Shown here one piece after another: positions 1 through 22,314 of a stretch of 22,314 bases of DNA (within the stretch, counting starts at the first letter, position 1; each line of letters begins with the position of its first letter). Source of the stretch: a virus; the IMG/VR virus record IMGVR_UViG_3300018080_007316, positions 1 to 22,314 of that record. One strand, written 5' to 3'. The notes beneath the pieces were generated by a model. The model was not told the origin of the DNA, searched no databases, and saw only the letters and a program-made list of their open reading frames with translations. Made by a program: the position numbers and the translations under genes.

Positions 1-141
1 GGGCAGGTCATGAAGAAGGCGCAGGAGGCCCAGGGGATGGCCAAACGCGGCGAGTTTTCCCACGCAAGGGGGGAATGCCTGGGGATCATAAACTACGCGG
101 CGGCGGCGGTCATTTGGCTGTCTGAGCAGGAGACAAAGTGA
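1..141 (+). CDS. 3' end of an unidentified phage gene (partial)
   Basis: The window opens inside a reading frame that stays open from base 1 to a TGA at 139-141, giving the last 46 residues of a protein. The visible tail is Lys/Glu/Ala-rich at first (MKKAQEAQGMAKRGEF) and ends in a short hydrophobic stretch (YAAAAVIWL) followed by SEQETK. The same strand and codon style as the downstream genes suggest a real gene. I do not recognise the family. It is followed by about 300 non-coding bases and a terminator-like hairpin, so it probably closes the preceding transcription unit rather than belonging to the glycan operon. Confidence 0.5.
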   Translation, partial: GQVMKKAQEAQGMAKRGEFSHARGECLGIINYAAAAVIWLSEQETK

Positions 142-162
142 ATGATATTGGACATATTCTTC

Positions 163-188
163 GACATTTTGGTCATGAAATGTCTTTT
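163..188 (+). terminator. Weak terminator-like hairpin after the first gene
   Basis: GACATTT (163-169) pairs perfectly with AAATGTC (178-184) around an 8-base loop and is followed at once by TTTT (185-188). The stem is short and AT-rich, so termination would be inefficient. Its position 20 bases after the stop codon of the preceding gene fits an intrinsic terminator. Confidence 0.35.
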
Positions 189-253
189 CGCGGTTGTCAA
201 ACATACATTGCGCACACTAACACTGCGGATGTTGTCGTGCGGATTGTGCGATA

Positions 254-270
254 ATTGGAGACCCTCCAAT
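254..270 (+). repeat. Perfect 7-bp inverted repeat with a 3-base loop
   Basis: ATTGGAG (254-260), a loop of ACC, and CTCCAAT (264-270) form a tight hairpin. The flanks TGCGGA and TCCGC are also nearly complementary, so the stem could continue after an internal loop. No T-run follows, so it looks like an operator or RNA structure rather than a terminator. Confidence 0.4.
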
Positions 271-317
271 CTTCCGCGCATAAAATGGAACGCGGCGATT
301 TCCGGATATTTGCTAGT

Positions 318-365
318 AAACTAATTTGGGCTACAACTTGCGATGTTAGTTTGTAGCCTTAGTTT
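318..365 (+). promoter_or_regulatory. Long hairpin (15 bp with a 4-base bulge) in the operon leader
   Basis: AAACTAA (318-324) plus GGCTACAA (329-336) pair with TTGTAGCC (351-358) plus TTAGTTT (359-365). This gives 15 perfect base pairs interrupted only by a TTTG bulge at 325-328, with a 14-base loop. A second TTAGTTT at 346-352 could compete for the same left arm, so two alternative folds are possible. It lies about 75 bases before the first glycan gene and has no T-run. It could be a leader RNA switch, an RNase site or a repressor operator; the sequence does not decide between them. Confidence 0.4.
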
Positions 366-438
366 GGGGAACCAGTGATTTCCATTTTGGAAATAGCTTG
401 CTAATTTTGCACATAGAATCAAGCACAGGGGGTGACGG

Positions 439-1275
439 ATGAAGATAGGGATCATCGGCGTCGGCGTGGTGGGCGGAGCGACGAAGGCCGTCATGGAGCG
501 CGCCCACGAGGTGCGGGGCTACGACCCGTACCGAAAGGAGTTCGAGGACACGGATAATCTCCGTTGGATCGCGCGTGAAGCGGACATAGTTTTCGTCTGC
601 GTGTCCACGCCCGGGAAGGAGGACGGCGGGGTCGGCTGCCAACATATCGACGCCTCGTTGGCCGCGCTGCGGCACGAAATGGCGGAGGTGGGTCGCCTAC
701 CCTCCGAACTCGTGGTCGCGATACGCTCGACGGCGATGGGCCCGGAACTCGACAGAGTGCTCAACGCTTACGGGTTCCGCTACGTGTGCAACCCCGAATT
801 CCTGCGCCAGGCGAGAGCGACCGAGGACATGGAGCACCCGGCGAGGGTCGTGGTCGGGACCGACGACCGGGACGCGGGGCGGACGGTGCTCTCGGCCTAC
901 GTGCAGGCGTACGGGAACGAGAACGCGCCGCAGTTCGTGTTCACCAGCCTGAAAGCGGCGCAGGTGACGAAGTACGCCGCGAACGCGATGTTGGCGGGCC
1001 AGATCGCCCTCGCGAATGAGATCGAGGAGATATGCCGCCGCCACGGGATACGCTACCGGGGCATCATGCACGCGCTGCGCATGGACCCGAGGATCGGGAA
1101 AAACATCGAGGTGCCCGGCCCGGACGGGAAGCGCGGCTACGGGGGCAGGTGCTTCCCGAAGGACCTGAGCGCGCTCATCATGTGCGCTGAGGATACCGGC
1201 TACGGAGCCCCGCTCCTGAAGGCGGTGCGCGACAGCAATACGCAGGCGCGGAGGAGGAAAGACGATGCGGAATAA
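439..1275 (+). CDS. ugd: Short UDP-glucose 6-dehydrogenase (UDPG/MGDP dehydrogenase family)
   Basis: Predicted to oxidise UDP-glucose to UDP-glucuronate with two NAD+. The 278-residue protein begins with a Rossmann dinucleotide motif (IGVGVVGG, residues 6-13) and has the VCVSTP loop (53-58), the CNPEFLR stretch (117-123), TKYAANAM (177-184, Lys and Asn of the active site) and GYGGRCFPKDL (233-243) with the catalytic Cys238. Bacterial enzymes are usually about 390-450 residues; this one stops soon after the catalytic Cys and lacks the C-terminal UDP-binding domain. The start ATG follows AGGGGGTGA at good spacing. It is the first gene of the operon and supplies the substrate for the UDP-xylose synthase two genes on. 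GDP-mannose dehydrogenase is the alternative, but the downstream decarboxylase favours UDP-glucose. Confidence 0.85.
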   Translation: MKIGIIGVGVVGGATKAVMERAHEVRGYDPYRKEFEDTDNLRWIAREADIVFVCVSTPGKEDGGVGCQHIDASLAALRHEMAEVGRLPSELVVAIRSTAMGPELDRVLNAYGFRYVCNPEFLRQARATEDMEHPARVVVGTDDRDAGRTVLSAYVQAYGNENAPQFVFTSLKAAQVTKYAANAMLAGQIALANEIEEICRRHGIRYRGIMHALRMDPRIGKNIEVPGPDGKRGYGGRCFPKDLSALIMCAEDTGYGAPLLKAVRDSNTQARRRKDDAE

Positions 1276-1648
1276 GGACATCATCGCCATGGCGATAGCG
1301 GTGGGGATAATCCTGCTCGTGCTGTTCTTCTACTTGGCGCCAGTGCGGGCGGGGGAAGCCGACCACGTGGCACTGGAGAGCGAGTGCCTTGAGCTGGCCG
1401 AGCGGATCGACGGGTGCGTGAAAATCCTGGTGCGCTACTGGGGGGCGAACGAGGGAACCCCGACCGGGGCGCGGAAGGCGGTCATCGAATCGCAACTGAG
1501 GGAACTGGAGCGGCTCTCGACGGAGCTGCGCCAGAAGCTGAGCGTCCTGGACCGGGGGCGGATGGAGCGGCTGCTGCTTCAGTTCAGCCGGGGCAGCGGC
1601 GCGGGTGGTGATGCGGATGGGGGACTGGCTGGAACGGACGGGGGGTGA
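1265..1648 (+). CDS. Small single-pass membrane protein of unknown function
   Basis: A 127-residue protein whose start overlaps the end of the dehydrogenase gene by 11 bases; GGAGGAAA lies just upstream of the ATG. Residues about 6-28 (IIAMAIAVGIILLVLFFYL) form one strong transmembrane helix or uncleaved signal anchor. Residues about 32-110 are charged and likely helical, with two Cys (near 41 and 51), and the end is Gly/Asp-rich (GSGAGGDADGG). I recognise no domain. It sits between the two enzymes of the UDP-xylose pathway, which suggests a role with the glycan machinery at the membrane, for instance anchoring it. A spanin- or holin-type role is possible but has no local support. Confidence 0.65.
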   Translation: MRNKDIIAMAIAVGIILLVLFFYLAPVRAGEADHVALESECLELAERIDGCVKILVRYWGANEGTPTGARKAVIESQLRELERLSTELRQKLSVLDRGRMERLLLQFSRGSGAGGDADGGLAGTDGG

Positions 1649-1652
1649 CCTC

Positions 1653-2606
1653 ATGGACGTGGTGAGCGGCGGGGCCGGATTCATCGGGAGGCACCTGGTC
1701 AGGGCACTGTTGGACAAGGGCGACTGCGTGACCGTGGTCGACAACTTCTGCACCAGCAGCGATGCGGGATTCATAGATGAGTTCCACAAGGAGCTGTCGG
1801 GGCACAGGCTCAAGCTCATGGTGGAGGATGTGGCGAAGGTGCGGCCCGGCGCGTACTTCGAGGGTGCCGGTGTGGTCTACCACCTGGCCTCGCCCGCAAG
1901 CCCGGCGGATTACGTGCGCCTGCCGCTGGAGACTCTGGAGGTGGGGAGCGTGGGCACGGAACGCATGGCCCGGATCGCCTACGCGAACAATGCCCGTCTG
2001 GTGTTCGCCTCCACGAGCGAGGTCTACGGGGACCCCGAGGTGCACCCGCAGACGGAGGGCTATTGCGGGAGCGTGAACCCGGTCGGGCCCCGGGCGATGT
2101 ACGATGAGGCCAAGCGTTTCGGGGAGGCGACGGTGTCGACGTGGGTGCGCCACCGGGGATTGAACGCGAGGATCGCCCGGTTGTTCAACACCTACGGTCC
2201 CGGGATGAGGACGGACGACGGGCGCGCGGTCCCGAACTTCATCACTCAGGCGCTCACGGAGCGGCCGCTCACGGTGTACGGCACCGGCCGGCAGACCAGG
2301 AGCTTCTGCTACATCGACGACACGGTCCGGGCGCTGCTCATGCTCGGATTCAGGGAGGGCCCGGATATGGGGCCGTTCAACGTGGGTAACCCGGAGGAGA
2401 TCACGATCATGCGCCTGGCGAAGCTCATCAGGACGATGGCGTGCTCGGGGAGCGGAATCGAGGTGCGACCGGCCCCGGAGGAGGACCCCCGGAGGCGGTG
2501 CCCGGACATCACCACCATCACCGAAGCGTTCGGCTGGCGGCCGACGATCCCCCTGCGGGATGGGTTGGCGAACACCATCGGATGGTTCAGGGAGAAGATG
2601 GGATGA
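1653..2606 (+). CDS. UDP-glucuronate decarboxylase / UDP-xylose synthase (extended SDR)
   Basis: Predicted to convert UDP-glucuronate to UDP-xylose through a 4-keto intermediate, using tightly bound NAD+. The 317 residues carry GGAGFIG (6-12, NAD binding), HLASPASPADY (77-87, a hallmark of this enzyme), STSEVYGDP (120-128), the YDEAK catalytic Tyr150/Lys154 pair, and ARLFNTYGP followed by LTVYGTGRQTRSF. This run is much closer to UDP-xylose synthases than to generic GalE or RmlB. The frame is open further upstream, but the ATG at 1653 follows GGGGTGA and begins right at the Rossmann strand, so I prefer it. It starts 4 bases after the membrane protein gene, and its stop overlaps the next start as ATGA. 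Confidence 0.88.
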   Translation: MDVVSGGAGFIGRHLVRALLDKGDCVTVVDNFCTSSDAGFIDEFHKELSGHRLKLMVEDVAKVRPGAYFEGAGVVYHLASPASPADYVRLPLETLEVGSVGTERMARIAYANNARLVFASTSEVYGDPEVHPQTEGYCGSVNPVGPRAMYDEAKRFGEATVSTWVRHRGLNARIARLFNTYGPGMRTDDGRAVPNFITQALTERPLTVYGTGRQTRSFCYIDDTVRALLMLGFREGPDMGPFNVGNPEEITIMRLAKLIRTMACSGSGIEVRPAPEEDPRRRCPDITTITEAFGWRPTIPLRDGLANTIGWFREKMG

Positions 2607-3424
2607 GGCTGGCGGTGATAATCCCGGTCTACAATCGGACCAAGGAGCTGGAGTGTTGCCTGCTCTGCCTGCACCGGCAGGATTACGGAGAATTTGAGAT
2701 CACAATCTGTGATGACGGGTCGAGCGAGGACACGCTGTCCCTGGTGCGCCGCTTCTCGGACGAGGGGCTCAACGTGCGCTACTGCTGGCAACCGGACAGG
2801 GGCTTCCGCGCGGGGCAGGCGAGAAACGCGGGCGTGAGGCTGGCGCAAGGGCGCGATCCGGTGTTCCTGGACTCGGACATCATTGTGCAGGAGAACTGGG
2901 TGGGCGAGCACATGAGGCTGGCGGCGCTGTTCCCGCAGGCGGTGATCTGCGGACGCTACGATTTCCTGCTCCCCTGCGACTACACGGTTGAGGATGTGGC
3001 GTACCGGTTCGACCGGGTGGTCAGCAACACGCTCCCGAGCGTCAAGTCGCCCCCGGCGAACCAGCTGGTCGGCCCCGACATCAGGCAGTCGCTCTTCGAC
3101 CGGGACCGGAGGATACGGGAGGAGCACGGGGACGGGAGCGAGAAGCGGCTCATCCGCGGGTCGGGAGGGGCGCTGTTCGGGGGGAACGCGCGCATCCCCG
3201 AAGATTGGTTCGGGAAGGTCGGGGGCTTCGACGAACATTTCATCCGCCATGGGGGGGAGGACTCGGATTTGGGGCAGACGCTCGACGAGGCCGGGGTCCC
3301 GTTCATATTCACCGACGAGGTCATCGGCTGGCACCTGTGGCATTGGAAGAATCAAAGGGCGAACGAGGTCAGTCTCAGGGCGAACATCGAATATATCGAC
3401 CGGAAACACGGGAAGATACCATGA
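2603..3424 (+). CDS. GT2-family glycosyltransferase with DSD metal motif
   Basis: A 273-residue GT-A fold transferase, predicted cytoplasmic, that moves a sugar from a nucleotide donor to an unknown acceptor. The N-terminus VIIPVYNR and CDDGSSED (36-43) bind the nucleotide; FLDSDI gives the DxD-type motif at 90-92. The C-terminal part has GGFDEHF and GGEDSDLG (217-224), typical of the acceptor-site loop of GT2/GT27-like enzymes. Start is the ATG of an ATGA overlap with the UDP-xylose synthase gene, supporting translational coupling and suggesting UDP-xylose as a possible donor (inference). No membrane segment is seen, unlike processive GT2 enzymes. Confidence 0.82.
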   Translation: MRLAVIIPVYNRTKELECCLLCLHRQDYGEFEITICDDGSSEDTLSLVRRFSDEGLNVRYCWQPDRGFRAGQARNAGVRLAQGRDPVFLDSDIIVQENWVGEHMRLAALFPQAVICGRYDFLLPCDYTVEDVAYRFDRVVSNTLPSVKSPPANQLVGPDIRQSLFDRDRRIREEHGDGSEKRLIRGSGGALFGGNARIPEDWFGKVGGFDEHFIRHGGEDSDLGQTLDEAGVPFIFTDEVIGWHLWHWKNQRANEVSLRANIEYIDRKHGKIP

Positions 3425-10373: not shown

Positions 10374-10416
10374 CCTGTGGATAACCTGTAACCTAGCGTT
10401 ACACCTTATCCACAGG
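10374..10416. repeat. 43-bp interrupted palindrome 1 (DnaA boxes plus GTAAC arms)
   Basis: Outer arms CCTGTGGATAA (10374-10384) and TTATCCACAGG (10406-10416) are perfect inverted repeats. Inner arms GTAAC (10388-10392) and GTTAC (10398-10402) share the same centre, base 10395, around CTAGC. Confidence 0.85.
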
Positions 10417-10469
10417 CTTAGGGAAGCTCATTTTCCCTCAGAATAGACGTAAGGTAGGATTGAAGCGGA

Positions 10470-10497
10470 TTTACATTGTTTTAGCAAGAAATAAATT
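10470..10497 (+). promoter_or_regulatory. Possible sigma-70-type promoter for the second operon
   Basis: TTTACA (10470-10475) and TAAATT (10492-10497) are separated by 16 bases, matching 5/6 and 4/6 of the -35 and -10 consensus. It lies in the AT-rich core between the DnaA palindromes and points toward the SDR gene at 10603. AT-richness alone could produce such a match, so it is a candidate only. Confidence 0.3.
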
Positions 10498-10516
10498 GAT
10501 TGAAGTCTAAAGGCTG

Positions 10517-10570
10517 CCTGTGGATAACTTGTGGATAACATGTAACGCTAGGTTACACCTTATCCACAGG
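10517..10570. repeat. Palindrome 2 with an extra DnaA box
   Basis: TGTGGATAA (10530-10538) and TTATCCACA (10560-10568) are inverted arms, with GTAAC (10542-10546) and GTTAC (10552-10556) inside, all centred at 10549. The core reads GCTAG, the reverse complement of CTAGC in palindrome 1, so the two sites face each other. A further box (CCTGTGGATAA, 10517-10527) is stacked on the left. Confidence 0.85.
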
Positions 10571-11655: not shown

Positions 11656-12539
11656 ACGAGACCGTGTTGCGTGTAGTCGGCCCCAACGGCAAACCCGGGG
11701 GGGAGGGGCTGTCCCTGGCATGGTACGAGCGCCCCGACGTGCAGGTGGTCCGGGATATCGGCACGCGCTGCTTCCCGCTCTCATCGGGCACGATGGACGA
11801 AGTGGTCCTCGATAACGCGATCGACTACTTGGACGACTGGCCGCACCTTCTCAACGAATGCCACCGCGTGCTCAAACCGGAAGGGAAGGTGTCGGTGCGG
11901 GGATCGCTCGACACGGCGCTGTTCTCGGCGATGGCGAGGGCGACCGGGATGGAAAAGGCCGCACTCGGCCTGCGCTGCGCGTTCGAGGAGACGAACGAAT
12001 GGGGACTCGCCCTGCGGTCCGAAAGCGAGCGCTCCGGTGGAGCCCGCCCGCTCCTGACGAGACCGGGTATCGCGCTCCACAACGGGCACCCGAGCTGCGT
12101 CCGGGTGGAGCTGGGATGCGGGTCGAGGAAGCGCGGCGTCCCGGGACCGTTCATCGGCGTCGACCGCCATGAATATCCCGGGGTCGACGAGGTGGCCGAC
12201 ATCGAGCGGGGGCTCCCGTTCCATGACGGTTCGGTCGATTTCGTCTTCGCCTCGCACCTGATGGAGCATATCGGCGACCTCATCTTCGCGATGGAGGAGA
12301 TATGGCGGGTGCTGCGGAACCGAGGGATTTTTGAAATGATTAATCCTTGGTGGAATTCTATGTATGCTTTTGTAAACCCTGATCATAAACGCGTTTTACA
12401 CAACGATTTGTGGAGTTATTGGTCAAGTCAAGGAAATATAATGGACAAAGAAGCATACGGAATAAAAGCTCGCTTCGATGTTGTAAGCAATTCGCATATG
12501 GGAGATGGAAATTTTGTTACTTTAGAAGCAGAAAAATAA
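11652..12539 (+). CDS. Class I SAM methyltransferase with an extra N-terminal half-module and a GC-poor 3' end
   Basis: The 295-residue protein has two methyltransferase-like parts. Residues 31-85 (PLSSGTMDEVVLDNAIDYL, then HRVLKPEGKV) look like the second half of a methyltransferase without its SAM-binding loop. Residues 150-295 form a fuller domain with motif I (VELGCGSRKRG, 152-162, then GVD), LPFHDGSVDFVFASHLMEHI and WRVLRNRGIF. From about codon 225 the DNA turns abruptly AT-rich and stays so to the end, in line with the following HNH gene. The protein nevertheless reads smoothly through, including a VNPDHK stretch seen in phage methyltransferases. It starts in an ATGA overlap with the SDR gene. 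Target unknown; sugar O-methylation fits the context. Confidence 0.75.
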   Translation: MNETVLRVVGPNGKPGGEGLSLAWYERPDVQVVRDIGTRCFPLSSGTMDEVVLDNAIDYLDDWPHLLNECHRVLKPEGKVSVRGSLDTALFSAMARATGMEKAALGLRCAFEETNEWGLALRSESERSGGARPLLTRPGIALHNGHPSCVRVELGCGSRKRGVPGPFIGVDRHEYPGVDEVADIERGLPFHDGSVDFVFASHLMEHIGDLIFAMEEIWRVLRNRGIFEMINPWWNSMYAFVNPDHKRVLHNDLWSYWSSQGNIMDKEAYGIKARFDVVSNSHMGDGNFVTLEAEK

Positions 12540-13290
12540 ATACAAAGGAACCGTTATTTTGACTTTCTCTGGAGAAAAAAATCCATTTTTTGGGCACAAA
12601 CACACAGAAGAACAAAAGAAGCGGTGGAGTATAATGCGAACTGGAGTTAAACTTTCAGAGCAAACAAGAAAAAATATGAGTAAAGCTCAACAAGCACGGA
12701 AAAAGAAATTTGGTTATATGCATTCAAAGGAGACTAGGAAGAAAATAAGCGAAGCACTTAAGGGGAAACGCTATAAGAGAAAACCTTTTTCAGAAGAACA
12801 CAAACAAAGAATGAGCGAAGCGAAAAAGGGAATTCGTAATCCCATGTTTGGTAACTCCCATTCTGAAGAGGCAAGAAAAAAGATAAGGGAAGCTACAAAA
12901 GGCAAGAACAATCCATTTTTTGGAAAGCGCCATAATATATTAACAAGAAAGAAAATGAGTCTCTCTGCTAAGGGAAAGCATGCCAATGAAAAAAATCCTA
13001 ATTGGCACGGGGGAATTACTCCGTTATATGGGAAAATAAGGGGAAACGACGAATATGATCAGTGGAGGAAAAAAGTCTTTACAAGAGACGGTTTTACTTG
13101 TCAACAATGTGGCAGTTCTAAGAGCGGCAGCCTTAATGCTCACCATATTAAACCTTTTTCTGAAATTATCACGTCCAATAAGATAACCACTTGTCAGCAA
13201 GCGATTGCCTGTAAAGAGCTTTGGAATATTGATAATGGAATAACTTTGTGTAAAACTTGTCACTTGAAAACGTACAGAACTATCACAGCG
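12325..13290 (+). mobile_element. Low-GC block: methyltransferase 3' end plus HNH homing endonuclease gene
   Basis: Codons switch from GC-rich to AT-rich inside the methyltransferase gene near 12325 and back near 13280-13290, inside the last codons of the HNH gene. The ~960-base block has no visible terminal repeats or target duplication. It fits transfer by homing, where the endonuclease gene and flanking DNA were copied together from a low-GC relative. Boundaries are by eye and good to about 15 bases. Confidence 0.6.
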
Positions 13291-13314
13291 GGGAGGGACT
13301 GTTTACGACGATGA
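12559..13314 (+). CDS. HNH homing endonuclease with NUMOD3 repeats
   Basis: A 251-residue, Lys-rich protein typical of free-standing homing endonucleases. Several NUMOD3 DNA-binding repeats occupy residues 6-140 (KNPFFGHKHTEEQKKR, RNPMFGNSHSEEARKKI, NNPFFGKRH). The nuclease domain follows: FTRDGFTCQQCG (174-185), AHHIKP (194-199) and NGITLCKTCHLK (226-237), giving the His-Asn-His catalytic set and a C181/C184/C231/C234 zinc site. The start is TTG at 12559 after AAAGGA. The gene is markedly AT-rich compared with its neighbours; only its last few codons are GC-rich. It lies between two methyltransferase genes, with no sign of an intron around it. Confidence 0.85.
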   Translation: MTFSGEKNPFFGHKHTEEQKKRWSIMRTGVKLSEQTRKNMSKAQQARKKKFGYMHSKETRKKISEALKGKRYKRKPFSEEHKQRMSEAKKGIRNPMFGNSHSEEARKKIREATKGKNNPFFGKRHNILTRKKMSLSAKGKHANEKNPNWHGGITPLYGKIRGNDEYDQWRKKVFTRDGFTCQQCGSSKSGSLNAHHIKPFSEIITSNKITTCQQAIACKELWNIDNGITLCKTCHLKTYRTITAGRDCLRR

Positions 13315-13324
13315 TGGCGATGAA

Positions 13325-13954
13325 ATGACACTCAAAGATATGCCCGACATCGGGCTGACAGAAGAGGCGTTACGGAGAATACATGCGGCTGCGCTCCTGA
13401 CCGAACTCGACATCTACCATTTGTTCCAGTTCGCCCGCGAGATCCCCGAGGGCGGGACCTACCTTGAGCTAGGGGCCTATGCCGGGGGAGCGGTCATGTG
13501 CGTCGGGGAGGCGGCGAGGGCGGTGGAACGGCACGTCACCCTGATCGCGGTTGACCTGAACTTCGGCCTCGGATTCAGCGGCAATACTGGCGGCCTCCCG
13601 GTGAGAGTGATAGAGGGGAGGATCGGCGACAGGGACACGGTCAACAGGATCGACGGCGTTTCGGTTGACCTCATCTTCAACGATGCGGACCAACCGTACG
13701 GCGATCTGTGCCGTGACATCGCTCTCTATTGGGGCAAGCTGAAGCCGGGAGGGGTGCTGCTCGGACATGATTATTGGAACGGGACCGACCGTGGGTTCAT
13801 GGACACGAAGCGGGCGGTCGACGATGTGTTCGGGGAGCTGGCGACGGTGATGGAGGGGAACACCACGATGTGGATGGTGGGGAAGACGGACGAGACCGAC
13901 ACCATTGTCAGGAAACTGGCGAAGGAGATCGAGGGGGAGCGGCGTGCAGAATAA
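13325..13954 (+). CDS. Class I SAM methyltransferase (Methyltransf_24 type)
   Basis: A 209-residue methyltransferase. TYLELGAYAGGAVM (45-58) is motif I for SAM binding, LIAVDLN (73-79) carries the ribose-binding Asp, VDLIFNDADQPY (114-125) is motif IV, and LKPGGVLLGHDYW (139-151) is motif V-VI. This layout matches small-molecule and sugar O-methyltransferases associated with glycan clusters. Unlike most genes here it does not overlap the gene before it and has only a weak ribosome binding site near 13325, consistent with the HNH insertion having broken an older coupled arrangement. The next gene starts inside its end. Confidence 0.75.
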   Translation: MTLKDMPDIGLTEEALRRIHAAALLTELDIYHLFQFAREIPEGGTYLELGAYAGGAVMCVGEAARAVERHVTLIAVDLNFGLGFSGNTGGLPVRVIEGRIGDRDTVNRIDGVSVDLIFNDADQPYGDLCRDIALYWGKLKPGGVLLGHDYWNGTDRGFMDTKRAVDDVFGELATVMEGNTTMWMVGKTDETDTIVRKLAKEIEGERRAE

Positions 13955-21400: not shown

Positions 21401-22314
21401 AATGCGTTCGTCACCGCTGCCAATACGATGATCGGCGGAGCCGAAAATTTCGTGAACTTCTTCCTCACCGGGATCAACAATCTGCGCAAGGGCTGGGACG
21501 CGATGATGAAGGGAATCGGCTGGTTCGCAAAGAACGTCCTTCGTCAGGAACTCCCGGACTGGATGACCGCATTCGAGGAAGACTGGAAGGTGTCGTTCAG
21601 CCGTATCGAAGGGATCGCCGCCGATGCGCTTGCCATTAAGATCCCCGAATCGACGTTGAAGGAACCCGAGAAGTTCGCCGCAAGAATGTCCGAAGCCTGG
21701 GCGACAATAGAGGAACAGTTCTCCGAGATTCCCGGTGAGTTCCAGACTTACGTCAACCAGATTAAGAGGACGTGGGACGAGATTGTGGCTGCGGGTAGGA
21801 AGTTCGGTGTTGAAGCTGGCATCGAGGAATACATGCAAAAGATTGAAGCTTTGGTTGCGGAGTACGAAAAAGGAACGATAACCGGGGAGCAGTTTGGAAG
21901 ACAACTTGATGAGGTTTCTGAATCGGCCAAAGAAGCGGCAGAGAATGCTGGAAATGTGGCAACCGCTATTTCAAGAATCCCTCGATGGAAATGGGGGATA
22001 ACCCAGCCCGAATATGATATCATGGTGGCGTTTTGGGAAAAGATGGAATCGATCCGCCAAGAGGCGGAACGCATGGCAGAAGCCTCCAAAAAGCTCCATG
22101 CTCCTGGATTCAAATGGGCACCTACCCAATCTGAATACGATATCATGGTCGTATTCTGGAAGGAAATGGAAAAGATACGTCAAGAGGCAGAACGCATGGC
22201 GGAAGCCTCCAAAAAGCTCCATGCTCCTGGATTCAAATGGTCTCCCACCCAACCTGAATACGATATCATGGTGGCATTCTGGAAAGAGATGGAGAAAATC
22301 AGAGAGGAAGCAGA
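18437..22314 (+). CDS. Tape measure protein (TP901-like), intein-containing, 3' end beyond the window
   Basis: A protein of more than 1290 residues before splicing, setting tail length and delivering DNA. The first 128 residues include MKTQGLTQASKFNEQSLRKM, a Gly/Ala-rich hydrophobic helix and NVGAVAGASAEQLQQL, as in TP901-type tape measure proteins. An intein follows, then the conserved SAGYDVEKMMKALPGTL, and KLFGLRAGPAMMRM. A strongly hydrophobic stretch (about 20770-20965: FLVKLAAVLGGMLVVGG and AGISVAVYLLY) could span the membrane during DNA entry. The visible end is helical, with 41-residue repeats. The start is TTG at 18437 with GGAGGT eight bases upstream; an in-frame GTG at 18431 is too close to it. 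Confidence 0.88.
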   Translation, partial: MALGSSFSEGFGLKLKIHDQFSGPLSRYSTGITSAKMKTQGLTQASKFNEQSLRKMGMAATVAGGAIVAGLGLAVNTTRKFEYSMANVGAVAGASAEQLQQLGTFARKMGKDTIFAASEAGDAMYYLACLPPDEFILGGDYRVKKIGGFKEDEVISSSGECQMVHEHTSRPCVEGEVYKIKPRMMRPFRATGNHPILAVRTKQCLPYMRKKGCSSKHLCTPNCSDEKCTRRYYENYEPEWIRTEDLRQGDALLIPKIKREEDVEITWKTKRHLKRHNLLPRQIDDDFARFLGLIMGDGWADKERVFCAFSNKGKDAKSKMWFMEYVRSIGYAPYERRMTNCTQVAFWSRPLATLIAEWIGKGAKHKRIPPAMFRAKKSNVLAFLRGYFQSDGCHFVENGRTRISATTTSPHIAYFINLLAAKAGIVFSIGEDKGGRKTTLPSGHSSISGISYTIVTTNPRYVSAIVGHPLSTKPIKYEKFWQDEDYVYLPIISIERQEYHGHVYNMETEDNTYSTGVIVHNSAGYDVEKMMKALPGTLNFAAATQSGLAETTQLVVSTLNQYEMAAEDATKVSNIYSAVIGKSQATMERLGQSMQYVGPVAAGLNYSLEETSAALGILYNAGIDASMAGTALRGALARLMDPTNEVQGTLAQLGLTVEDISPTTHNFAEIVETLNKAGITTEQTMKLFGLRAGPAMMRMLSAGSDAIRQLTKDVTGTNRAAEMAEKQLATLQGQMKLLKSAVEEVQLAVGEALIPVLVPMIQKIRDIAKAIGDWGREHPQLLAFLVKLAAVLGGMLVVGGPLMMFAPAISSAATAFIGLVGAMGPVGLALAGISVAVYLLYTRWDAFAGVVDRAIEKLRELPVIGHAIKGVTMLLTDFPRATEIILLSLQAVWTALKNTFTDWEVFKAFLTMSAEVAKSLIVLWKDAWVTIGRILLRASSVIWAPLIKSLQWVGDQMAYYFRLGIESARNAIIEGINFITGQGFVPLANAFVTAANTMIGGAENFVNFFLTGINNLRKGWDAMMKGIGWFAKNVLRQELPDWMTAFEEDWKVSFSRIEGIAADALAIKIPESTLKEPEKFAARMSEAWATIEEQFSEIPGEFQTYVNQIKRTWDEIVAAGRKFGVEAGIEEYMQKIEALVAEYEKGTITGEQFGRQLDEVSESAKEAAENAGNVATAISRIPRWKWGITQPEYDIMVAFWEKMESIRQEAERMAEASKKLHAPGFKWAPTQSEYDIMVVFWKEMEKIRQEAERMAEASKKLHAPGFKWSPTQPEYDIMVAFWKEMEKIREEA
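18821..19999 (+). mobile_element. Intein with LAGLIDADG endonuclease, inserted in the tape measure protein
   Basis: In frame with its host gene, 393 residues from Cys1 to Asn393. Splicing motifs are complete: Cys1 (CLPPDEFIL), block B TGNHPIL with Thr63 and His66, block F EYHGHVYNMETEDNTY (370-385), and the end VIVHN followed by Ser in the C-extein. The endonuclease has both LAGLIDADG helices, FLGLIMGDG (162-170, Asp169) and FLRGYFQSDG (255-264, Asp263), so cleavage is probably active. A five-Cys cluster (76-100) may bind zinc. Splicing joins YYLA to SAGYD, restoring a conserved tape measure motif. The intein DNA is less GC-rich than the flanks. Confidence 0.9.
21992..22314 (+). repeat. 123-bp tandem repeats in the tape measure gene
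   Basis: Units start at 21992, 22115 and 22238, the third cut by the window edge. Each encodes 41 residues with the core EYDIMV.FW..ME.IRQEAE, then RMAEASKKLHAPGFKW. DNA identity is high between units 1-3, especially GATATCATGG and GCCTCCAAAAAGCTCCATGC. Period 41 codons keeps the frame and an alpha-helical pattern. Confidence 0.85.

Follow-up and report, generated by a model that had tools for sequence, protein, structure and literature searches.

A repeated DnaA-box element with a nested palindrome in a 98.9-kb phage: candidate composite sites for host DnaA and a phage ParB

The phage studied here carries, at four intergenic loci, a directional 39-bp element in which exact DnaA boxes enclose a second palindrome, TGTAAC-N5-GTTACA. 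We consider it quite possible, and favor the view, that these are composite sites, with host DnaA on the outer boxes and a phage dimer, most likely ParB, on the inner palindrome, and that they would serve replication or copy control. The anatomy, multiplicity and conservation of the element can be read from the DNA, as can one adjacent ParB gene; the binding proteins and the outcome we infer as the best explanation of them.

The window (the whole stretch of DNA analyzed, positions 1-22314) corresponds to positions 76623-98934 of a 98,936-base contig, IMGVR_UViG_3300017991_004311, at 99.99% identity. An exact-pattern scan of IMG/VR found the nested palindrome in this contig and in two shorter ones from the same virus. 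The parent contig starts and ends with an identical stretch of 113 bases that lies in a coding tandem repeat of 123 nt, and the map may therefore be circular. The 123-nt repeats are seen at both contig ends (window 21980-22314, contig 1-3094) within a long open reading frame, listed at 1009 aa, and probably belong to a single repetitive gene that spans the join of a circular map. The parent contig is a phage. Its proteins include a DnaB-like helicase, RecA, a portal, a head-maturation protease, head-morphogenesis proteins and a Pol III alpha fused to uracil-DNA glycosylase, with weaker matches to a DnaG-type primase, a gp32-like SSB and a terminase. Nearly all predicted genes lie on one strand, and no recognized replication initiator is encoded.

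A directional 39-mer at four intergenic loci

In the window, the element occupies the gap between the end of a HAD-type phosphatase gene (10363) and the best start of an epimerase gene (10603), both part of a glycan-biosynthesis cluster. The same GC-rich cluster contains a low-GC island (about 41%; window 12559-13314 and about 12000-13500) with a NUMOD3/HNH homing-type endonuclease. The original prediction, made from the window, described five exact boxes and two palindromes centered at 10395 and 10549, with matching GTAAC/GTTAC inner arms and the reverse-complementary cores CTAGC and GCTAG. All of these were recovered (Table 1), the arms in the longer form TGTAAC/GTTACA and the boxes within a 193-bp span and with no other exact copy in the window. 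The A+T-rich spacer, predicted at about 100 bases, measures 104 bp and is about 63% A+T. The palindromes do not, however, face each other across it, as had been proposed: over the whole 39-mer both lie on the minus strand (34/34 consensus positions agree, and 30/34 in the reverse orientation), and only the 5-bp core is inverted between them.

Chance was predicted to be a very unlikely source of such an arrangement, and the full contig bears this out. It has 15 exact DnaA boxes against an expectation of 0.28 and six TGTAAC-N5-GTTACA cores against one of 0.0004, and all 15 boxes and all six cores are confined to the four loci. With both counts so far above expectation, and all in the same sites, chance is excluded. 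The directional consensus reads TGTGGATAA-RG-TGTAAC-N5-GTTACA-KG-TTATCCACA, laid out as 9+21+9 bp with constant 2-bp linkers. Five sites fit it at 34/34 positions and the 70-kb site, which has lost its left box and keeps the inner palindrome intact, at 30/34; the next best match elsewhere in the genome reaches 21/34. Four of the six sites have a third box on their KG side, at a spacing of 11 bp. Every 5-bp core is either CTAGC or GCTAG, its reverse complement, in an orientation that does not follow that of the surrounding element.

Two of the loci, at 50.8 and 87.0 kb, are double units that are 88% identical, lie in opposite genome orientations and have a spacer of ~104 bp in common; in the 50.8-kb unit even the cores of the two palindromes agree. 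Between the double units, the palindromes differ at 2 of 92 positions (a count that omits the 5-bp core) and the spacers at 19 of 100 (Fisher p = 1.3e-4), the palindromes thus being the better conserved, as expected of binding sites. A mobile, MITE-like repeat or a recombination site copied around the genome would fit the identity and opposite orientations of the double units and the presence of the core in both orientations. We nevertheless regard this explanation as most improbable, given the conservation of the palindromes above the spacer. Moreover, neither double unit is bordered by a visible target-site duplication, no integrase was found in the phage and no transposase was seen among the proteins scanned.

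The other two loci are short gaps of about 80 bp between co-directional genes, each containing one 39-mer and lacking an AT-rich spacer. Promoter-like matches at the element sites are weak only. The 50.8-kb double unit is flanked by two terminator-like sites, away from obvious promoters, and its position between them favors a role as a DNA site over that of a promoter operator at this locus. Directly upstream of this unit is a gene for a Ro/TROVE-domain RNA-binding protein (L013:9236-10729), near which no Y RNA family was matched. No Rfam family was found in the window, and the only matches, below threshold, were at the 50-kb copy beside the Ro-type gene.

Table 1. Features of the element in the window and its loci in the parent contig
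Feature	Position	Strand	Remark
DnaA box	10376-10384	-	exact TTATCCACA
DnaA box	10406-10414	+	exact TTATCCACA
Third DnaA box	10519-10527	-	exact; tandem with 10530-10538, 11-bp spacing (2-bp gap)
DnaA box	10530-10538	-	exact TTATCCACA
DnaA box	10560-10568	+	exact TTATCCACA
Composite 39-mer, left copy (DnaA box-2 bp-TGTAAC-N5-GTTACA-2 bp-DnaA box)	10376-10414	-	34/34 to directional consensus
Inner palindrome TGTAACCTAGCGTTACA, candidate ParB site	10387-10403		one of six such cores in 98.9 kb
Composite 39-mer, right copy	10530-10568	-	34/34 to consensus; direct repeat of left copy, 154 bp apart
Inner palindrome TGTAACGCTAGGTTACA, candidate ParB site	10541-10557		one of six cores; core inverted relative to left copy
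A+T-rich spacer	10415-10518		81% identity over 102 bases to second double unit
IHF-like motif AATCAATTTATTT	10489-10501	-	same place in both spacers; last consensus position unmet
Element loci in contig	near 23.5, 50.8-51.0, 70.0 and 87.0 kb		87.0 kb is the locus of the window

Candidate binding proteins: host DnaA and a phage ParB

All 15 boxes match the widely used DnaA consensus exactly. A 2-bp gap between tandem boxes characterizes cooperative DnaA arrays in oriC (PMC4451416), and in other phage DnaA-box clusters same-strand spacings of 11-12 bp are the commonest (60 of 121 pairs within 40 bp). DnaA domain IV is absent from the phage-encoded proteins, so the DnaA would be that of the host.

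The original prediction also held that the GTAAC arms point to a second binding protein, and here the sequence offers a plausible candidate, since a phage ParB gene ends next to another copy of the element. The gene (contig 22550-23458; L012:2550-3458) encodes 302 aa with HTH_ParB (PF17762, 2.5e-15) and ParB_N (PF02195, 7.3e-13) domains and a conserved ENxQRxDLNPIE motif, and the 23-kb site begins 9 bp after its stop codon. The closest PDB proteins are chromosomal ParB and Noc, with KorB a weaker match (1e-20 for chromosomal ParB vs 4e-8 for KorB). In Caulobacter ParB, R173 contacts guanine 1 of parS (PMC7383237). The HTH of the phage protein keeps the equivalent arginine and differs at K171 and N178 (Caulobacter numbering, in a register set by hand alignment), while the half-site TGTAAC retains G1, T2 and C5 of the parS half-site TGTTTC; the inner palindrome has 17 bp vs 16 bp in canonical parS. 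About 33 intergenic gaps in the contig exceed 60 bp and four hold a site, which gives a probability of about 12% that a site would fall behind parB by chance. The link between ParB and the palindrome comes from this one adjacency, which is consistent with recognition and is not proof of it. The first 50 residues of the phage ParB form a cysteine-rich N-terminal extension (C-x11-C-x2-C-x5-C), possibly a zinc module. An AlphaFold model of the protein was poor (mean pLDDT 55.8) and was set aside.

We suggest that host DnaA would bind the outer TTATCCACA boxes and that a dimeric phage protein, most likely ParB, would bind TGTAAC-N5-GTTACA. With a linker of only 2 bp between outer box and inner palindrome, the two proteins would have to stack or else be mutually exclusive. 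Whether host DnaA sits on the phage DNA could be decided by the loading of ParB, which perhaps slides in a CTP-dependent manner. The likeliest use would be replication or copy control, by analogy with Vibrio cholerae chromosome II, whose 39-mers are the nearest tested analogue. There, a spacer with the ParB2 half-site TGTAAA lies between two 9-bp RctB boxes, and ParB2 competes with and displaces the initiator RctB (PMC3688505). The likeness is one of anatomy only: 39 bp, two 9-bp initiator boxes and a ParB half-site at the box/spacer junction. The half-site is TGTAAC in the phage, the RctB boxes are direct repeats whereas those of the phage are inverted repeats of the DnaA consensus, and the carrier is a phage, in which binding is predicted, rather than a bacterial chromosome. 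Still, the repeated, directional pairing of DnaA boxes with a likely ParB site makes for a concrete two-protein model. If it is correct, competition between initiator and ParB would extend from a secondary chromosome to viruses, and the composite element would offer a role for ParB in phages without ParA.

Several observations speak against the composite reading, among them the extra base pair of the palindrome relative to canonical parS and the lack of a ParA match. Two related phages of 129 and 145 kb (G004 and G005) carry an unrelated palindrome, TTGTA-N3-TACAA, nested in DnaA or near-DnaA boxes, and have no HTH_ParB hit; and a replication role is less natural for the two sites in short gaps between co-directional genes. 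A bolder form of the idea, which we hold to be somewhat doubtful, is that an orphan ParB without ParA acts as a switch over host DnaA. Its clamps at dispersed, DnaA-flanked sites would evict or position the initiator, and unrelated phages, such as the two just mentioned, would have evolved similar sites for an initiator plus a second protein. ParA was not found in the phage, with no AAA_31 match and no KGGxGK[ST] motif in six frames of the contig.

A ParB gene with ParB_N and HTH_ParB domains beside one palindrome recalls parS/ParABS and orphan ParB-CTPase systems (PMC12704722), and dispersed palindromic sites for a ParB-family protein on a mobile genome recall KorB of plasmid RK2 (PMC11790492). 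The sites might thus be a parS centromere or KorB-like operators of the phage ParB, with a different part of ParB recognizing the outer arms, or DnaA doing so only incidentally. The palindromes are intergenic and dispersed, as KorB operators are, one copy is directly behind parB, and the 70-kb copy has kept its inner palindrome without the left box. Even so, we find this reading decidedly unlikely: it would make the exact DnaA consensus of 15 of 15 boxes a coincidence, no ParA was found, and the 50-kb unit sits between terminator-like sites and not near an obvious promoter. The phage also differs from ParABS in its 17-bp palindrome with TGTAAC half-sites and in the DnaA boxes beside every copy, and from KorB in that its ParB is nearer to chromosomal ParB by sequence.

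Origin and titration as possible alternative roles

A single origin inside the glycan island, as first proposed, is unsupported, with the element at four loci and no skew switch in 98.9 kb. Cumulative GC skew rises throughout the contig, a weak argument, since nearly all genes run one way and skew then says little. The five exact boxes in 193 bp do amount to the DnaA-box cluster looked for in an oriC-type origin, and the perfect boxes, the 2-bp tandem gap and a possible IHF site are shared with oriC, datA and DARS; the phage differs from these in its several dispersed copies and its nested second palindrome. A simple single origin is less likely than the composite reading.

In a broader version, which we rate as unlikely, the 50.8- and 87.0-kb double units would load DnaA, open the spacer and load the DnaB-like helicase, the single sites being relics or regulators. 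The phage has suitable machinery for this in its helicase, Pol III alpha and weakly matched DnaG-type primase and gp32-like SSB, and it lacks a recognized initiator. The box pairs with an A+T-rich spacer would fit, as would an IHF-like motif conserved in both spacers; this motif occurs four times in 98.9 kb, two of the four in these spacers, and we treat it as a lead only. Against such an origin, there are four loci rather than one, the skew shows no switch (weakly, for the reason given), the A+T content of the spacer is not kept (63% in one double unit, 53% in the other), and the single sites have no such spacer.

The element may also act as a sensor or in titration. Dispersed high-affinity boxes could act as a sink that titrates host DnaA as phage copies rise, halting host initiation. 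This would be in keeping with 15 perfect consensus boxes per genome and with what is seen in other phages: inverted box pairs with 18-24 bp between them occur in at least 120 IMG/VR stretches vs 17 for a reversed control (an enrichment of at least 7-fold), and 14-31 boxes are spread over several loci in a number of large phages. A sink, however, needs no exact 2-bp linker, no inner palindrome and no direction, and we think it quite unlikely as the explanation of the element.

Distribution in other phages and genomes

DnaA-box clusters are common in uncultured phages, and no study of their use in phages was found in the literature searched. Two large phages have clusters of 15 and 12 boxes (L116:1814-2340 and L133:4627-5111), with three and two copies of the TTGTA-N3-TACAA palindrome nested between boxes or near-boxes. 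Outside contigs of the same virus, searches of phages, plasmids and genomes did not recover the exact element of the present phage. Exact and relaxed scans of genomes from 84,980 species of bacteria and archaea yielded either no match or isolated, chance-like ones with one GTAAC-type core each and no nested pair. Among phages with DnaA-box pairs that were checked for HTH_ParB, only the studied phage had a clear match, with a weaker one in a further phage (G007). More distant phage ParBs had no DnaA boxes nearby and no palindrome of the TGTAAC-N5-GTTACA kind.

No relatives in which site loss or co-conservation with ParB could be followed were found in the collections searched. Close IMG/VR relatives of ParB, Pol III alpha and the portal proved to be the same phage, except for distant Pol III relatives at 37% and 30%. 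The fetched stretches of these two contained no box, and the 37% record is boxless across its 84 kb. In the studied phage, the Pol III alpha fusion (L012:4874-8257) has uracil-DNA glycosylase as its C-terminal domain, and the 37% relative (L139) aligns with it over almost its full length, apparently as the same fusion.
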